The notes under the pieces were generated by a model, which was given only the letters and a program-made list of their open reading frames with translations, was not told where the DNA came from and ran no database searches. Shown piece by piece: positions 13,792 to 19,184 of a DNA stretch of 64,000 nt. The position numbers and the translations under genes were made by a program. Source of the stretch: Cellulomonas sp. SG140 (GTDB lineage Bacteria; Actinomycetota; Actinomycetes; Actinomycetales; Cellulomonadaceae); NCBI RefSeq assembly GCF_025770785.1, contig NZ_JANZLA010000002.1, positions 62,001-126,000 of the forward strand. The letters are read 5' to 3'. Every line of letters begins with the position of its first letter. The first letter of the stretch is position 1.

Positions 13792-13841
13792 TTGATAAAC
13801 GGGACATCGTTCCGTATAGTCCAGTAGCGGGACATTGTCCC
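13792..13841 (+). promoter_or_regulatory. sigma70-type promoter with two TetR operators
   Basis: TTGATA (13792-13797), a 17-bp spacer and TATAGT (13815-13820) make a near-consensus promoter for the reductase gene. A perfect palindrome GGGACA-T-TGTCCC lies at 13829-13841, over the expected transcription start. A two-mismatch copy, GGGACATCGTTCC, lies at 13801-13813 inside the spacer. The copies are 28 bp apart, so repressor bound to either would block RNA polymerase. Confidence 0.7.
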
Positions 13842-13891
13842 ACTTCCACGTCATCGTACGGCGCCCGCAGGGACGTCAGCAGGGAGTCACG

Positions 13892-14917
13892 ATGCAGTAC
13901 CGCACGCTCGGCCGCACCGGCATCAAGGTCAGCCCCTACGCGCTCGGCGCGATGATGCTCGGATCGCTCGGCAACCCCGACCGCGCCGAGGCGATCCGCA
14001 TCGTCCACCGCGCGCTCGACGCCGGGATCAACGTCGTCGACACCGCCGACCGCTACGGCGACTCCGAGGAGGTGGTGGGGGAGGCGCTCAAGGGGCGACG
14101 GGACGACGTGGTGCTCGCGACCAAGTTCTGGGGCCCCGTCGACGACGACCTCAACCACCGCGGCGCCTCGCGCCGCTGGATCGTGCAGGCCGTCGAGCGC
14201 TCGCTGCGCCGGCTCCAGACGGACCACATCGACCTGTACCAGCTGCACCGGCCCGACCCCGAGACGGACGTCGACGAGACGCTGTCGGCCCTCACCGACC
14301 TGGTCCGGCAGGGCAAGGTGCGCGCCATCGGCTCCTCGTCGATGCGCGGCTCGGAGATCGTCGAGGCGCAGTGGACCTCGGAACGACGCGGCTTCGAGCG
14401 GTTCCGCACCGAGCAGCCCAACTACTCGATCCTCGACCGCGAGATCGAGCGGGAGATCCTGCCGGTCGCGCAGCGCTACGGCATGGGCACGCTGGTCTAC
14501 AGCCCGCTCGCCGGCGGCATGCTGACCGGCCGGTACCGGGCCGGCCAGGAGAACGACAACTTCCGCTCGGCGCGCACCGGGATGCGGCACTTCCGCGACG
14601 AGCGTCGGCTGGCTGCCGTCGAGCAGCTGGTCGCGCTCTCCGACGAGGTCGGGATCAAGCTGACGCATCTCGCGATGGCCTTCGTCATCGCGCACCCGGG
14701 TGTGACCTGCGCCATCGCCGGTCCGCGCACCATGGAGCAGCTCGAGGACACCCTCGCCGGGGTCGACGTCGCGCTGAGCGACGAGATCCTCGACCGCATC
14801 GACGAGATCGTGCCGCCGGGGGAGAGCGTCGGCGCGATGGACATGGTCTACCGCGGGCCGGAGGTGGGCGACGCGGCTCTGCGCCGACGCGGGCAGCGGG
14901 ACCGGTCGGCGGCGTAG
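13892..14917 (+). CDS. aldo/keto reductase
   Basis: This 341-residue NADPH-dependent reductase has a TIM-barrel fold. The catalytic tetrad is D50, Y55, K78 and H119 (VVDTADRYG, LATKFW, LYQLHRPD). The C-terminal GPRTMEQLEDTLAGVDV fits the cofactor phosphate-binding segment of the AKR family. ATG 13892 has AGGGAG upstream; earlier in-frame codons overlap the operator. Similar proteins reduce aldehydes and ketones of diverse origin. The divergent TetR gene and double operator suggest induction by a toxic carbonyl compound, which is inference. Confidence 0.92.
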   Translation: MQYRTLGRTGIKVSPYALGAMMLGSLGNPDRAEAIRIVHRALDAGINVVDTADRYGDSEEVVGEALKGRRDDVVLATKFWGPVDDDLNHRGASRRWIVQAVERSLRRLQTDHIDLYQLHRPDPETDVDETLSALTDLVRQGKVRAIGSSSMRGSEIVEAQWTSERRGFERFRTEQPNYSILDREIEREILPVAQRYGMGTLVYSPLAGGMLTGRYRAGQENDNFRSARTGMRHFRDERRLAAVEQLVALSDEVGIKLTHLAMAFVIAHPGVTCAIAGPRTMEQLEDTLAGVDVALSDEILDRIDEIVPPGESVGAMDMVYRGPEVGDAALRRRGQRDRSAA

Positions 14918-15052
14918 GCCGCGGCGTGGGCCGGGGCGCGCCACGGGCGGCGCCTGTGCACGTTCGTGCGGAAGGACGATGGGCCCTCCCCGCGCGATCC
15001 GGCGCCGCCCTAGCGTGGTGGTGCTGCGCACCTCGACGAGGAGGTGGGGACA

Positions 15053-17101
15053 GTGCCCACAGCGGCTGGTCCGGCGACACCGCACGTCGTCGTGATCGGG
15101 GGTGGCGGGACCGGCGGTGCGGTCGCCCACGACCTGGCACTACGTGGGTTGCGCGTCACGGTGCTCGAACGCGGTGAGGTCACCTCGGGCACCACCGGCC
15201 GGCACCACGGGCTGCTGCACAGCGGTGCCCGGTACGCGGTGGCGGACGCGACGTCGGCGGTGGAGTGCATCGCCGAGAACCGGATCCTGCGGCAGATCGC
15301 CCCGGGGTCATTCGAGGAGAACGACGGGCTGTTCGTCGCGCTGACCGACGAGGACCTGGCGTACCTGCCGGGGTTCGTCGAGGCGTGCCGTGCCTGCGGC
15401 ATCCCGGCGGAGGTGCTCGACACCGCGGAGGCCCTGCGGCGTGAGCCGGGGCTGAGCCCGGACGTCAAGGCGGCCGTGCAGGTGCCGGACGGCACGATGG
15501 ACGCGATGCGGCTGCCGCTGCGGTTCTTCGCGACGGCGCAGTCGAACGGCGCCGTGATCAGGACGTTCACCGAGGTGGTGGGCCTGCGGCGGCAGGACGG
15601 CGCCGTGACCGGTGTCGCGTACCGCGACGACGTCACCGGCGAGGAGGGGCTGCTGGCTGCCGACCTGGTGGTGAACGCCGCCGGGCCGTGGGCGCAGCGG
15701 ATCGCCGAGATGGCCGGCGTCGACGTCCCCATCCGGTGCTCGCCCGGTGTCCTGGTGGCCGTCCGGGGCCGGTGGTGCGACATGGTGGTCAACCGGCTGC
15801 ACCGGTCCGGCGACGGCGACATCGTGCTCCCGCAGCGTGGCCTGAGCGTGATCGGCACGAGCTCGTGGGTGGTCGACGACCCCGACGAGCTGCACCTGCC
15901 GGAGGACCACATCCGCACGATGGTCACGGAGGGCTCGAGGCTGGTGCCGGCGGTGGCGCACGCCGAGATCCGCGCCGCCTGGTCGGCGGTGCGTCCGCTG
16001 ATCGGGGACGGCGGCAGCACGACCGGACGGGAGCTGTCCCGCACGTTCAAGTGCTTCGACCACGCGGAGCGGGACGGCGTCGAGGGGTTCGTCACCATCT
16101 CCGGCGGGAAGGCGACGACGCTGCGGGCGATGGCGGAGGCGGCGGCCGACGTCGTCTGCCGCCGGCTGGGCGTCGAGGCGCCGTGCCGCACCCGCGAGCA
16201 GGTGCTGCTGCCGCACACCGCGTACTACACGTTGCGCGAGCTGGTGCGGGGACCGCGGACGTCTCCCGCGGCGAGCCCCGGCGCGGCTGGTCCCGTGAGG
16301 AAGACCCCTGCCGCCACGACGGCCGCGTCGAGCCGCGTGCTCCGCGTCTCGCGCTGGAAGCCCGGCTGGCCGGCGCCGGCTCAGCTCGACTACGTCGTCC
16401 CCGTCGAGCCGCGCACCACGGTGCTCGACGCCCTGCGCAGCATCAGATGGCACGACGACGCGTCGCTGACCGTGCGGCACTCGTGCTGCCACTCGTCGTG
16501 CGGCACGTGCGGCGTGCGGGTGAACGGGGCGGAGGTGCTCGGCTGCGTCACCGCGCTGGCCGACCTGCCGGTGGGCGCGGTGACGGTCGAGCCGATGGCC
16601 AACGCGCCGGTGCTCAGCGACCTGGTGGTCGACATGACCCGGTTGTACGACGGGCTCGAGCGCTCCGGGCGTCCGCTGGTGCGGCAGGTGGAGACGACGC
16701 GGCGGGAGCGCAGGGCGAGGGCGCGCACGGCCGCGACGGGCCCGGTCCCGGTGCGGCTCGAGGACTGCGTCGAGTGCGGGCTGTGCGTCTCCGCGTGCCC
16801 GATCACCGGGACCGACCAGGCGTATCTCGGCCCCGCGGTGCTCGGCGCGGCCGCCCGGGTGGTCGCCGAGCCGCGCGGTCAGGACGTGCGGTCGGTGCTC
16901 ACGTGGGTCGACGACCACGACGGCTGCTGGCGCTGCCACCTCAGCTTCGCGTGCAGCGAGGTGTGCCCGACGGGCGCGGACCCGGCGGCCGGGATCATGG
17001 CGCTGCGCGGGGCCCTCACACGGGAGCACCTGAGGTGGCGGTCGGACGGGCACCGCGGTGCGGACCGGCCGGCCGACCAGGAGAGGACGGCAGCGCGATG
17101 A
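15053..17101 (+). CDS. GlpA-type FAD dehydrogenase fused to SdhB-like iron-sulfur subunit
   Basis: This is a 682-residue fusion. Residues 1-395 resemble the anaerobic glycerol-3-phosphate dehydrogenase subunit GlpA: GGGGTGG (16-22) binds FAD, then TSGTTGRHHGLLHSGARYAV, VQVPDGTMD, VVNAAGPWAQ and TISGGKATT. After an Ala/Thr/Pro linker (about 396-427) comes an SdhB-like module. [2Fe-2S] ligands are C478, C483, C486 and C498. C572, C575, C578 and C638 fit [4Fe-4S]. C582, C628 and C634 fit [3Fe-4S]. GlpA normally carries a BFD-like domain instead and works with GlpB and GlpC. GTG 15053 is chosen because AGGAGG lies 8 nt upstream. The stop overlaps the anchor-gene ATG. Glycerol 3-phosphate as substrate is inferred. 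Confidence 0.88.
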   Translation: MPTAAGPATPHVVVIGGGGTGGAVAHDLALRGLRVTVLERGEVTSGTTGRHHGLLHSGARYAVADATSAVECIAENRILRQIAPGSFEENDGLFVALTDEDLAYLPGFVEACRACGIPAEVLDTAEALRREPGLSPDVKAAVQVPDGTMDAMRLPLRFFATAQSNGAVIRTFTEVVGLRRQDGAVTGVAYRDDVTGEEGLLAADLVVNAAGPWAQRIAEMAGVDVPIRCSPGVLVAVRGRWCDMVVNRLHRSGDGDIVLPQRGLSVIGTSSWVVDDPDELHLPEDHIRTMVTEGSRLVPAVAHAEIRAAWSAVRPLIGDGGSTTGRELSRTFKCFDHAERDGVEGFVTISGGKATTLRAMAEAAADVVCRRLGVEAPCRTREQVLLPHTAYYTLRELVRGPRTSPAASPGAAGPVRKTPAATTAASSRVLRVSRWKPGWPAPAQLDYVVPVEPRTTVLDALRSIRWHDDASLTVRHSCCHSSCGTCGVRVNGAEVLGCVTALADLPVGAVTVEPMANAPVLSDLVVDMTRLYDGLERSGRPLVRQVETTRRERRARARTAATGPVPVRLEDCVECGLCVSACPITGTDQAYLGPAVLGAAARVVAEPRGQDVRSVLTWVDDHDGCWRCHLSFACSEVCPTGADPAAGIMALRGALTREHLRWRSDGHRGADRPADQERTAAR

Positions 17102-17502
17102 CGAGCGAACCGGGCACGACGCGCGGCACGGGACGCCGCGGCCTTCGAGGCTGGGTCGCGCACCCCGGTGCCGGCACCCCGACGTGGGCGTTCGTGGCGA
17201 ACCGGGTGTCGGCGCTGGTCCTGGTCGGGTACCTGTACCTGCACCTGGTGGTGCTGTCGATGCTGCTGCGGGGCTCGGCCAGCTGGGACCAGTTCCTGGC
17301 GATCGCCGGGACCAGGGCGTTCGTGGCGGTGGACGTGGTGCTGTTCGCCGCGGTGGTGTGGCACGCCGCGAACGGTGTGCGGGTGGCGCTGGTGGGCACC
17401 GGGATCGCCGTGCGGCGGCAGCGCGCGCTGCTGGTCGGCGTGGTCGTGGTGACGGTGCTGGTGACGGCGACCGCCGCCGTGCTGCTGCTGGCGAGGGAGT
17501 GA
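17098..17502 (+). CDS. SdhC-like cytochrome b membrane anchor
   Basis: This 134-residue protein has three transmembrane helices (about 37-57, 73-95 and 110-131). H49 (YLYLHLVVLS) and H89 (VWHAANGVRVAL) are placed like haem or quinone-site histidines, and WHAANGVR matches the SdhC helix motif H-x2-x-G-x-R. It begins in an ATGA overlap with the GlpA-SdhB fusion and is followed 3 nt later by the second anchor. In this complex it should hold the iron-sulfur subunit at the membrane and pass electrons to menaquinone. Confidence 0.85.
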   Translation: MTSEPGTTRGTGRRGLRGWVAHPGAGTPTWAFVANRVSALVLVGYLYLHLVVLSMLLRGSASWDQFLAIAGTRAFVAVDVVLFAAVVWHAANGVRVALVGTGIAVRRQRALLVGVVVVTVLVTATAAVLLLARE

Positions 17503-17505
17503 GCG

Positions 17506-17937
17506 ATGAGCGTCGAGCTGCGTCGTCGTGCCCGGCCCTCCGGCCCCGCGCAGCCGGTCGACCGGCCCCGTGCCGATGGGGAGCCGGGTCGCCGCGGCGG
17601 CGGCTGGGGCTGGATCCTGCAGGTGGTCACCGGCGCCGCGCTGCTGGTGCTCGTCGTCGTCCACCTCGTCGCCCAGCACTTCGTCGTCTCCGCGCCGGGC
17701 GGTCTGCGGGACCGGGCGTCGGTGCTGGTCTACCTGGGCAACCCGGTGATCGTGGTGATCGAGTCGCTGTTCATGCTCACCGTGACGTGGCACGCCCTGC
17801 TGGGCGTCCGCTCGATCCTCTTCGACCTCGTTCTGGGTCCGAGGGCCCGGCGGCGGGTGACCGTCGGGCTCACCGCGCTCGGCGTCGTGACGCTCGGCTA
17901 CGGGTTCTGGATGATCGCGGTGCTGGCCGCCGGCTGA
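17506..17937 (+). CDS. SdhD-like membrane anchor
   Basis: This 143-residue protein has a basic, Pro-rich cytoplasmic tail (1-32) followed by three helices (about 36-60, 78-105 and 117-141). H53 and H58 (VVHLVAQHFVV) lie in helix 1. H96 sits in TWHALLGVRSILFDL, the SdhD-type motif W-H-x3-G-x-R-x3-D. Together with the preceding gene this gives the two-protein, six-helix anchor typical of succinate:quinone oxidoreductases. Its last 40 nt overlap the end of the convergent sigma-factor gene. Confidence 0.83.
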   Translation: MSVELRRRARPSGPAQPVDRPRADGEPGRRGGGWGWILQVVTGAALLVLVVVHLVAQHFVVSAPGGLRDRASVLVYLGNPVIVVIESLFMLTVTWHALLGVRSILFDLVLGPRARRRVTVGLTALGVVTLGYGFWMIAVLAAG

Positions 17938-19184
17938 GGCGGGCCCAGCTGGCTGCGCCGGCGGGTCAGGTAGGCCGTCTCGGCCGTGTTCGCGGCGAGG
18001 GCCAGGGCGCGGTCGTAGGCCTCGATCGCCTCGGCACGCCGACCGAGCCGGCGCAGCAGCTCCGCGCGCGTGACGTGGAAGGTGTGCAGGCCGGTCAGCG
18101 GCAGCCGGTCGACCAGGGCGAGCGCCACCTCGGGTCCGTCCAGTTCCGCGACGGCGATCGCGCGGTCGAGGGCCACCACCGGTGCGGGGTCGACGCGCAG
18201 CAGCCGGTCGTACAGCGTCACCACCTGGGACCAGTCGGTGTCCCGCGCCTCGCGGGCCGCCGTGTGCACGGCGTTGATCGCGGCCAGCAGCTGGTAGCGG
18301 CCCGGGGGAGGACCGCCCGCGGCGACCGCGGCCAGGCGCTCGCGCACCAGGCGGTGCCCCTCGTCGACCAGCTGGGTGTCCCACGCGCTGCGGTCCTGCT
18401 CGCCGAGCGTCACCAGCTCGCCGGTCGACGACACGCGGGCCGGCCGGCGCGCCTCGGTCAGCAGCATCAGCGCGAGCAGCCCGGTCACCTCGCCGGTGTC
18501 GTCCGGCAGCAGCTCGCGCACCAGGCGGGTCAGCCGGATCGCCTCGGCGGTCAGGTCGGCGCGGACGGGCTCGGTGTCGCCACCGGTGGCGAGGTAGCCC
18601 TCGTTGAAGACGAGGAACAGCACCGTCAGCACCGCGTCCAGCCGGGCCGGCAGGTCCTGCGCGGTCGGCACCCGGTACGGCACGTGCGCGGCCCGGATCT
18701 TCGCCTTCGCCCGCGTCAGCCGCTGACCCATGGTCGCCTCGGGCACCAGGAACGCCCGCGCGATCTGCGGCATCGTCAGGCCGCCGACCATCCGCAGCGT
18801 CAGCGCGACCCGCGCCTCCGGCGACAGCGCCGGGTGGCAGCACGTGAACACCAGGCGCAGCCGGTCGTCCTTCACGGCGCCGCGGTCCTGCGGAGGGTCG
18901 TCGTCGTGCAGCAACGCGGCCTCCTGGTGCTTCTCGTCACGGCGCAGCTCCCGGCGCAGGCGGTCGATCGCCTTGCGGGTCGCCGTGGTGGTCAGCCAGC
19001 CGCCGGGGTTGGGCGGGACACCGTCGCGCGGCCAGCGCTCGACGGCGGTCGCGAACGCCTCGGCGGCGGCGTCCTCGGCGGCACCCAGGTCGCCGAGGCG
19101 TCGGGTGAGGGTGGCGACCACCCGGGCCCACTCCTCACGGTGGGCCCGGGTGATGGCCTCCTCGACGGGCTCGAGCCGCGTCAC
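17898..19184 (-). CDS. ECF42-type RNA polymerase sigma factor
   Basis: This 428-residue protein has sigma region 2 at about 10-85 (LGDLGAAEDAAAEAFATAVE, WPRDGVPPNPGGWLTTTATR) and region 4 at about 110-175 (LSPEARVALTLRMVGGLTMP). The long helical C-terminal domain contains LTVLFLVFNEGYLATGG and DRAIAVAELDGPEVAL, the TPR-like extension diagnostic of ECF42. It has no anti-sigma gene; ECF42 genes are paired with DGPF-domain proteins, as here (GTGA overlap with 19181-19567). The last codons run 40 nt into the convergent anchor gene, since no earlier stop exists. Confidence 0.92.
   Translation of the reverse strand: MTRLEPVEEAITRAHREEWARVVATLTRRLGDLGAAEDAAAEAFATAVERWPRDGVPPNPGGWLTTTATRKAIDRLRRELRRDEKHQEAALLHDDDPPQDRGAVKDDRLRLVFTCCHPALSPEARVALTLRMVGGLTMPQIARAFLVPEATMGQRLTRAKAKIRAAHVPYRVPTAQDLPARLDAVLTVLFLVFNEGYLATGGDTEPVRADLTAEAIRLTRLVRELLPDDTGEVTGLLALMLLTEARRPARVSSTGELVTLGEQDRSAWDTQLVDEGHRLVRERLAAVAAGGPPPGRYQLLAAINAVHTAAREARDTDWSQVVTLYDRLLRVDPAPVVALDRAIAVAELDGPEVALALVDRLPLTGLHTFHVTRAELLRRLGRRAEAIEAYDRALALAANTAETAYLTRRRSQLGPPQPAASTAIIQNP

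Follow-up and report, generated by a model that had tools for sequence, protein, structure and literature searches.

A hybrid of GlpA and complex II in Cellulomonas sp. SG140

A 64,000 nt stretch of Cellulomonas sp. SG140 (contig NZ_JANZLA010000002.1, positions 62,001 to 126,000; hereafter the window) carries three consecutive genes that probably specify a membrane-bound sn-glycerol-3-phosphate (G3P):menaquinone oxidoreductase whose complex II module would be of the diheme type. The first gene joins a GlpA-type flavin adenine dinucleotide (FAD) domain to an SdhB-type iron-sulphur domain, and the two following genes encode SdhC- and SdhD-like membrane anchors. From sequence comparison we infer the substrate, the electron path, the haem content and menaquinone as the acceptor quinone. 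An original prediction for this region had described a 682-residue GlpA-SdhB fusion with two anchors of the succinate dehydrogenase (SDH) type; this observation is confirmed by intact frames and by Pfam and NCBIfam matches, and the interpretation attached to it is partly supported. The elements, all on the forward strand, are:

15038..15044, +, Shine-Dalgarno-like GAGGAGG, read directly, 8 nt 5' of the GTG start
15053..17101, +, fused GlpA-SdhB gene, 682 aa, one intact frame from GTG start to TGA stop
15053..16237, +, GlpA-type FAD/G3P domain, residues 1-395 (TIGR03377, 457.6 bits, residues 11-393)
16238..16327, +, interdomain linker, residues 396-425, modelled as disordered and variable among genomes
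16328..17032, +, SdhB-type domain, residues 426-660 (TIGR00384, 167.1 bits, cut-off 88)
17098..17502, +, SdhC-like anchor, 134 aa (PF01127, 43.0 bits; 6lum_C, E 5.6e-7; H49, H89)
17506..17937, +, SdhD-like anchor, 143 aa (PF01127, 46.7 bits; 6lum_C, E 2.9e-8; H53, H96)

The start codon of the sdhC-like gene overlaps the stop codon of the fusion (ATGA). Pfam matches of the fused protein were DAO (180.6 bits, residues 11-363), Fer2_3 (84 bits, 430-532) and Fer4_8 (38.5 bits, 569-641); both anchors scored as Sdh_cyt above the cut-off of 25.8 bits, and three hydropathy helices were seen in each anchor of the close copy at locus L009. An AlphaFold2 model of the fused protein, built on 69 aligned rows, reached a mean predicted local distance difference test score (pLDDT) of 83.5 and a predicted template modelling score of 0.84, with pLDDT below 50 in linker residues 403-424.

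An assembly or frameshift artefact was ruled out, as the same fusion forms a single frame in eight distinct genomes. Two of these belong to Actinotalea strains whose records are not marked as metagenome-assembled. Comparison with one other sequence, that of Cellulomonas sp. 73-145, revealed 15 first- or second-position and 64 third-position codon differences in the GlpA part, a clear sign of purifying selection. The same sign was weaker in the SdhB part of this pair, with 22 differences in each class, and the linker had no third-position excess (11, 10 and 12 differences at the three codon positions).

The flavin domain is GlpA-like and retains five G3P-site residues

The flavin domain can be assigned to GlpA, by far its best-matching family. 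NCBIfam scores were 457.6 bits for GlpA, 110.1 and 95.7 bits for the GlpD models and 51.7 bits for L-2-hydroxyglutarate oxidase, and the glycine and sarcosine oxidase models also fell far below GlpA. Identity as a 2-hydroxyglutarate oxidase, named in the original prediction as the outcome that would count against it, was rejected on these scores, its own cut-off being 299 bits. An SdhA/FrdA-type flavoprotein was not matched either, FAD_binding_2 scoring only 31.6 bits with its best stretch at residues 11-51. The closest sequences in the PDB were a glycerol-3-phosphate dehydrogenase and a glycerophosphate oxidase, and the model's best fold matches were GlpD and glycerophosphate oxidases, with an L-2-hydroxyglutarate dehydrogenase (L2HGDH) first appearing at rank 44.

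Residues R60, Y61, R314, R330 and K353 of the fusion align with R54, Y55, R317, R332 and K354 of E. coli GlpD, which we take to be G3P-site residues. All five positions are invariant in the 51 rows of the GlpA alignment. This and the corresponding alignments of SdhB (48 rows), SdhC (47 rows) and SdhD (40 rows) leave out incomplete open reading frames (ORFs) and the duplicate locus L004, which lies on the same contig as L009.

The SdhB domain and the anchors conserve the expected ligands of a diheme complex II

The C-terminal iron-sulphur part of GlpA is absent from the fused protein, and the domain found in its place has fumarate reductase and succinate dehydrogenase iron-sulphur subunits as its closest PDB sequences. 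None of the 11 cysteines aligned with those of E. coli FrdB is missing, and all are invariant in 48 of 48 SdhB rows. They presumably bind a [2Fe-2S] cluster (C478, C483, C486, C498), a [4Fe-4S] cluster (C572, C575, C578, C638) and a [3Fe-4S] cluster (C582, C628, C634), the full set claimed at the outset. A single branch (Shimodaira-Hasegawa-like approximate likelihood ratio test (SH-aLRT) support 99) separates the hybrid SdhB rows from other SdhB rows. With TIGR00384 above its cut-off and both anchors in Sdh_cyt, the proposed complex II electron-transfer and membrane module is well matched.

Conservation in the anchors extends beyond the two histidines, H89 of SdhC and H96 of SdhD, that had been pointed out in the original prediction. 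H49 and H89 of SdhC are invariant in all 47 rows, as are H53, H58, H96 and D107 of SdhD in all 40, and histidine is absent from the H49 and H53 positions in E. coli SdhC and SdhD. The SdhC pair aligns with the haem ligands C47 and C87 of M. smegmatis Sdh2 (6LUM chain C). H53 and H96 of SdhD could be placed on 6LUM chain C only, the sole credible structural match, where they fall at the same two positions as the SdhC pair. Two anchors with two bis-histidine pairs correspond to the pattern of diheme type A complex II, and the anchors are thus expected to carry ligands for two haems rather than the single haem first proposed; haem binding itself is predicted. Since the anchors of the separate sdhCDAB of the same host also show histidine in both helices, the diheme-type anchor may be the local norm and not specific to the hybrid.

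The usual form is a four-gene operon and the fusion is a rare derivative

A scan of genome contigs yielded 63 loci, and 62 relatives were kept after setting aside L071, which holds only a GlpD-like protein. Separate, adjacent glpA and sdhB genes were found in 48 relatives and a fused gene in five, while nine had one part only, mostly at contig ends. A first locus list, in which most relatives appeared as full-length fusions, was discarded: its tblastn matches had crossed a stop codon that the reading frames reveal in the 48 separate cases. With the window, G027 (L005) and G052 (L080) added, complete fused genes are known from eight distinct genomes, and a ninth fused-type genome (G074) has the gene cut short. 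The expectation that other genomes would share the arrangement thus proved right. The fusion is real, but as an architecture it is a rare derived state; the arrangement normally consists of four separate genes (glpA-sdhB-sdhC-sdhD), as found in Chloroflexota and other Actinomycetota.

In the GlpA tree the eight fused genes form one clade (SH-aLRT 100), requiring one change and nested in the larger, mostly Chloroflexota, set of split genes. By this topology the fusion is a single, late and derived event, rare and confined to a Cellulomonadaceae-type clade. The simplest reading would be that the four-gene operon was transferred into this actinobacterial line and then fused once. The trees differ as to which split genes stand closest to the fused clade, namely a group of fen Chloroflexota for GlpA (support 80) and L068, on a long branch, for SdhB (support 94), and a transfer signal in base composition was not seen (operon 74.5% G+C, window 73.5%). 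Both trees come from quick searches, with SH-aLRT as the sole support measure and long branches flagged; in the GlpA tree the label 'split' was also given to L045, L053 and L057, next to which no complete sdhB was seen.

The hybrid is patchily distributed. Three of the 40 genomes in the genus sample have it. Counting matches to the GlpA part at E <= 1e-100, at least 6 of 150 genomes of the family sample, at least 14 of 396 of the phylum sample and at least 12 of 251 from a sample of Chloroflexota, the phylum to which G196 belongs, were positive; these counts include the centre genome and may be low, as at most 12 (family), 7 (Chloroflexota) and 4 (phylum) candidates were scored per genome. An sdhB gene adjoins the GlpA part in 11 of those 12 Chloroflexota genomes. 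In the phylum sample without the window genome, sdhB, sdhC and sdhD adjoin it in 12 of 13 genomes, a contig end cutting the other. The natural occurrence of the same pair in both fused and split versions argues strongly that the GlpA and SdhB parts act together.

Genomic context and host complement

Split-type operons lie in a glycerol and dihydroxyacetone catabolic cluster. Of the split-type loci, 42 extend more than 1.7 kb upstream, and 36 of these have glpK within 2.5 kb upstream; dhaL was found in 26 of the 36 that extend more than 3.3 kb upstream. Where the sequence continues for at least 1.7 kb past sdhB (46 loci), both sdhC and sdhD follow in 38, five of these being fused. Domain searches on chosen loci confirmed DhaK, DhaL and a DhaM-HPr-enzyme I (EI) protein, and the common order is glpF-dhaK-dhaL-glpK-glpA-sdhB-sdhC-sdhD with dhaM-HPr-EI further along. 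The glpF-dhaKL-glpK context of the split form points to the oxidative direction and to glycerol catabolism; the reversible G3P/menaquinone chemistry suggested originally finds no support.

Host genomes were searched for GlpB (45 genomes), for the GlpD C-terminal domain (45) and for a second SdhB (26), in each case a subset of the genomes with the operon. GlpB scored above its cut-off in only one of the 45 distinct genomes, G217, that of L068. The 49 rows searched represent these 45 genomes, four having been entered twice; 38 rows gave a match at E <= 0.001, and the matches below cut-off were short, weak and limited to the very start of the GlpB model. The GlpD C-terminal domain was detected in 9 of 9 fused-type hosts versus 8 of 36 split-type hosts, the GlpB-bearing host being one of these eight. 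Neither this domain nor GlpB was detected in the other 28 split-type hosts, many of them incomplete metagenome assemblies. In most of the split-type hosts examined, the hybrid is consequently the only respiratory G3P dehydrogenase of the GlpD/GlpABC kind detected. Glycerol kinase was above cut-off in all nine fused-type hosts, and 25 of 26 hosts contain a second SdhB that lies across the tree from the hybrid SdhB.

The genome of the window host (3.8 Mb, 99.97% complete, 6.25% contaminated), which belongs to the same genus as Cellulomonas sp. 73-145, has a glpD-glpF-glpK group on contig C13 and a separate sdhCDAB with its own anchors on contig C15 (G000:C15). Here the hybrid supplements both standard systems, and in Cellulomonas-type hosts generally it accompanies a GlpD as a second enzyme.

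Two further genes flank the set in the window. An aldo/keto reductase gene (13835-14917, same strand) ends 135 bp upstream of the fusion, and nothing ties it to the system; a Sigma-70-like gene with a DUF6596 domain (17898-19184, minus strand) is convergent with the sdhD-like gene.

Variant loci among the relatives also deserve mention. In L049 (7164-8291), L059 (7165-8301) and L017 (4614-5759), from Anaerolineales or Chloroflexota, SdhB and SdhC apparently share one frame, a different fusion in the same operon. A small ORF of 86-103 aa with two hydropathy helices follows sdhD in L013 (4838-5110), L019 (2711-3022), L042 (8679-8984), L047 (5609-5896), L048 (8660-8941) and L065 (2542-2802); the L019 copy has no Pfam match, and the product is possibly an extra subunit.

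Proposed mechanism

At the FAD of the GlpA domain, glycerol-3-phosphate would be oxidized to dihydroxyacetone phosphate (DHAP). From there the [2Fe-2S], [4Fe-4S] and [3Fe-4S] clusters of the fused SdhB domain would relay electrons to the membrane. The anchor formed by SdhC and SdhD, probably containing two b haems, would reduce menaquinone. The SdhB domain and the anchors would in this way replace the iron-sulphur C-terminus of GlpA, GlpB and GlpC. The potentials are about -190 mV for DHAP/G3P and -74 mV for menaquinone, so that transfer from G3P to menaquinone would run downhill unaided. With a distal quinone site like that of M. smegmatis Sdh2, the electrons would traverse the membrane and the reaction would gain further drive from the proton motive force; with a proximal site the reaction would be electroneutral. 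A bolder proposal is a widespread bacterial class of electrogenic G3P:menaquinone oxidoreductases, in which a complex II wire and a diheme anchor serve a non-SdhA flavoprotein and carry its electrons across the membrane, exposing G3P oxidation to the proton motive force. We regard it as tentative and somewhat doubtful.

Evidence against a G3P:menaquinone oxidoreductase and alternative explanations

Several observations weigh against the proposed activity. The FAD domain stays below the full-length TIGR03377 cut-off of 552.8 bits, with model positions 384-530 unmatched, because the C-terminal part of the model has no counterpart in the fusion. The equivalent of GlpD H233 is not kept: the window protein has D there, 42 of 51 hybrids have N and E. 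coli GlpA has Q. In the SdhB domain, each of the 48 rows has T or S at the equivalent of E. coli SdhB W164, which we take to be part of the proximal quinone site, and an E. coli-like proximal quinone site is therefore not supported. Neither glpK nor glpF was found in the 64-kb window, and glpK was found in none of the six fused-type loci within the stretches read; the substrate of the fused enzyme therefore rests on homology. The incompleteness of many host assemblies weakens the absences reported above.

Some relatives also depart from the operon pattern. An sdhC-sdhD pair was not seen in 8 of 46 loci. Four loci from fen Chloroflexota (L051, L055, L056, L070) have glpA-sdhB without recognised anchors, L024 and L027 have sdhC with sdhD not recognised, and in L054 and L060 neither was recognised. 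Genome G195 holds an anchorless glpA-sdhB plus a full operon. L057 and L094 carry a GlpA of this clade, and an adjoining SdhB was not found. Finally, glpB and glpC stand beside the hybrid in L045, whose genome was outside the GlpB search.

Details of these loci are as follows. Downstream of the four anchorless fen Chloroflexota pairs there is a PlsY-like match, and their SdhB has a long N-terminal extension; in L051 and L070 a ketopantoate-reductase-like gene was also read downstream. Immediately before the hybrid glpA stand glpA-glpB-glpC in L068 (1387-5754) and, in L045 (137-2031), glpC with part of glpB, both types occurring in one cluster. GlpC, looked for only in the retrieved loci and the window, was seen in L045 and L068.

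The alternative that fares best is a GlpA-derived dehydrogenase acting on a different phosphorylated polyol or hydroxy acid and still feeding the complex II module. The fused genes without glpK linkage, the H233 position unlike that of GlpD, and the nine fused-type hosts that all have the GlpD C-terminal domain and glycerol kinase would fit such a change of substrate. Against it stand the five G3P-site positions, unchanged in every GlpA row, the place of the fused clade among split genes that are mostly glpK-linked, and the far lower scores of the 2-hydroxyglutarate, glycine and sarcosine oxidase models. We consider it unlikely. A remnant gene set without a present role in the window organism would agree with the patchy occurrence in the genus and family samples; the three intact reading frames, the strong purifying selection on the GlpA part and the retained ligands make this highly improbable. 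Ordinary complex II, with a misidentified flavoprotein or with anchors serving a canonical SdhA-SdhB, is the least credible of all: the C-terminal domain and the anchors do fall in SDH families, but the gene set includes no SdhA-type flavoprotein, the GlpA scores refute the flavoprotein half, and the separate sdhCDAB that the original prediction had treated as a sign of such anchors has its own, in line with the second SdhB of nearly all hosts examined.

Relation to known systems

A G3P:menaquinone oxidoreductase of this composition shares the GlpA FAD domain with E. coli GlpABC, whereas the window gene set has neither the GlpA C-terminal iron-sulphur domain nor GlpB or GlpC. With the diheme two-anchor succinate:menaquinone oxidoreductase Sdh2 of M. 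smegmatis, as described in the available part of the source (6LUM; PMC7447783), it shares the three-cluster SdhB and four matching anchor histidines; its flavoprotein is of GlpA type, not SdhA, and has SdhB fused to it.

The nearest precedent is archaeal. According to the available part of Schmerling et al. 2025 (PMC11962113), glpA is followed by putative counterparts of sdhB, c and d in Thermofilum pendens and related archaea, in the same gene order as here, and a membrane complex is drawn. The archaeal system consists of separate genes and was deduced from synteny, whereas the present one is bacterial and, in the window clade, fused; the two were compared by description, not by sequence. In the same part, GlpA-CoxG of Sulfolobus acidocaldarius likewise combines a GlpA lacking the iron-sulphur C-terminus with another membrane partner, CoxG being regarded as an anchor rather than an electron carrier. 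The original prediction knew of no enzyme with this architecture; that no longer holds for the kind of arrangement, which has been described in archaea, whereas the fused bacterial form looks unreported, no description of a bacterial or fused version having been found in full-text literature searches that covered few subscription papers.

The portion of PMC11962113 consulted contrasts diverse archaeal glpA neighbourhoods with a canonical bacterial glpA that co-occurs with glpB and glpC, and the operons of Chloroflexota and Actinomycetota found here are an exception to that picture. If the proposed activity is true, the SdhB-SdhC-SdhD module would be portable between dehydrogenases in bacteria, which suggests that respiratory complexes are built from interchangeable modules. 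The diheme-type anchor would make coupling of G3P oxidation to the membrane potential testable, including in named Actinotalea strains.

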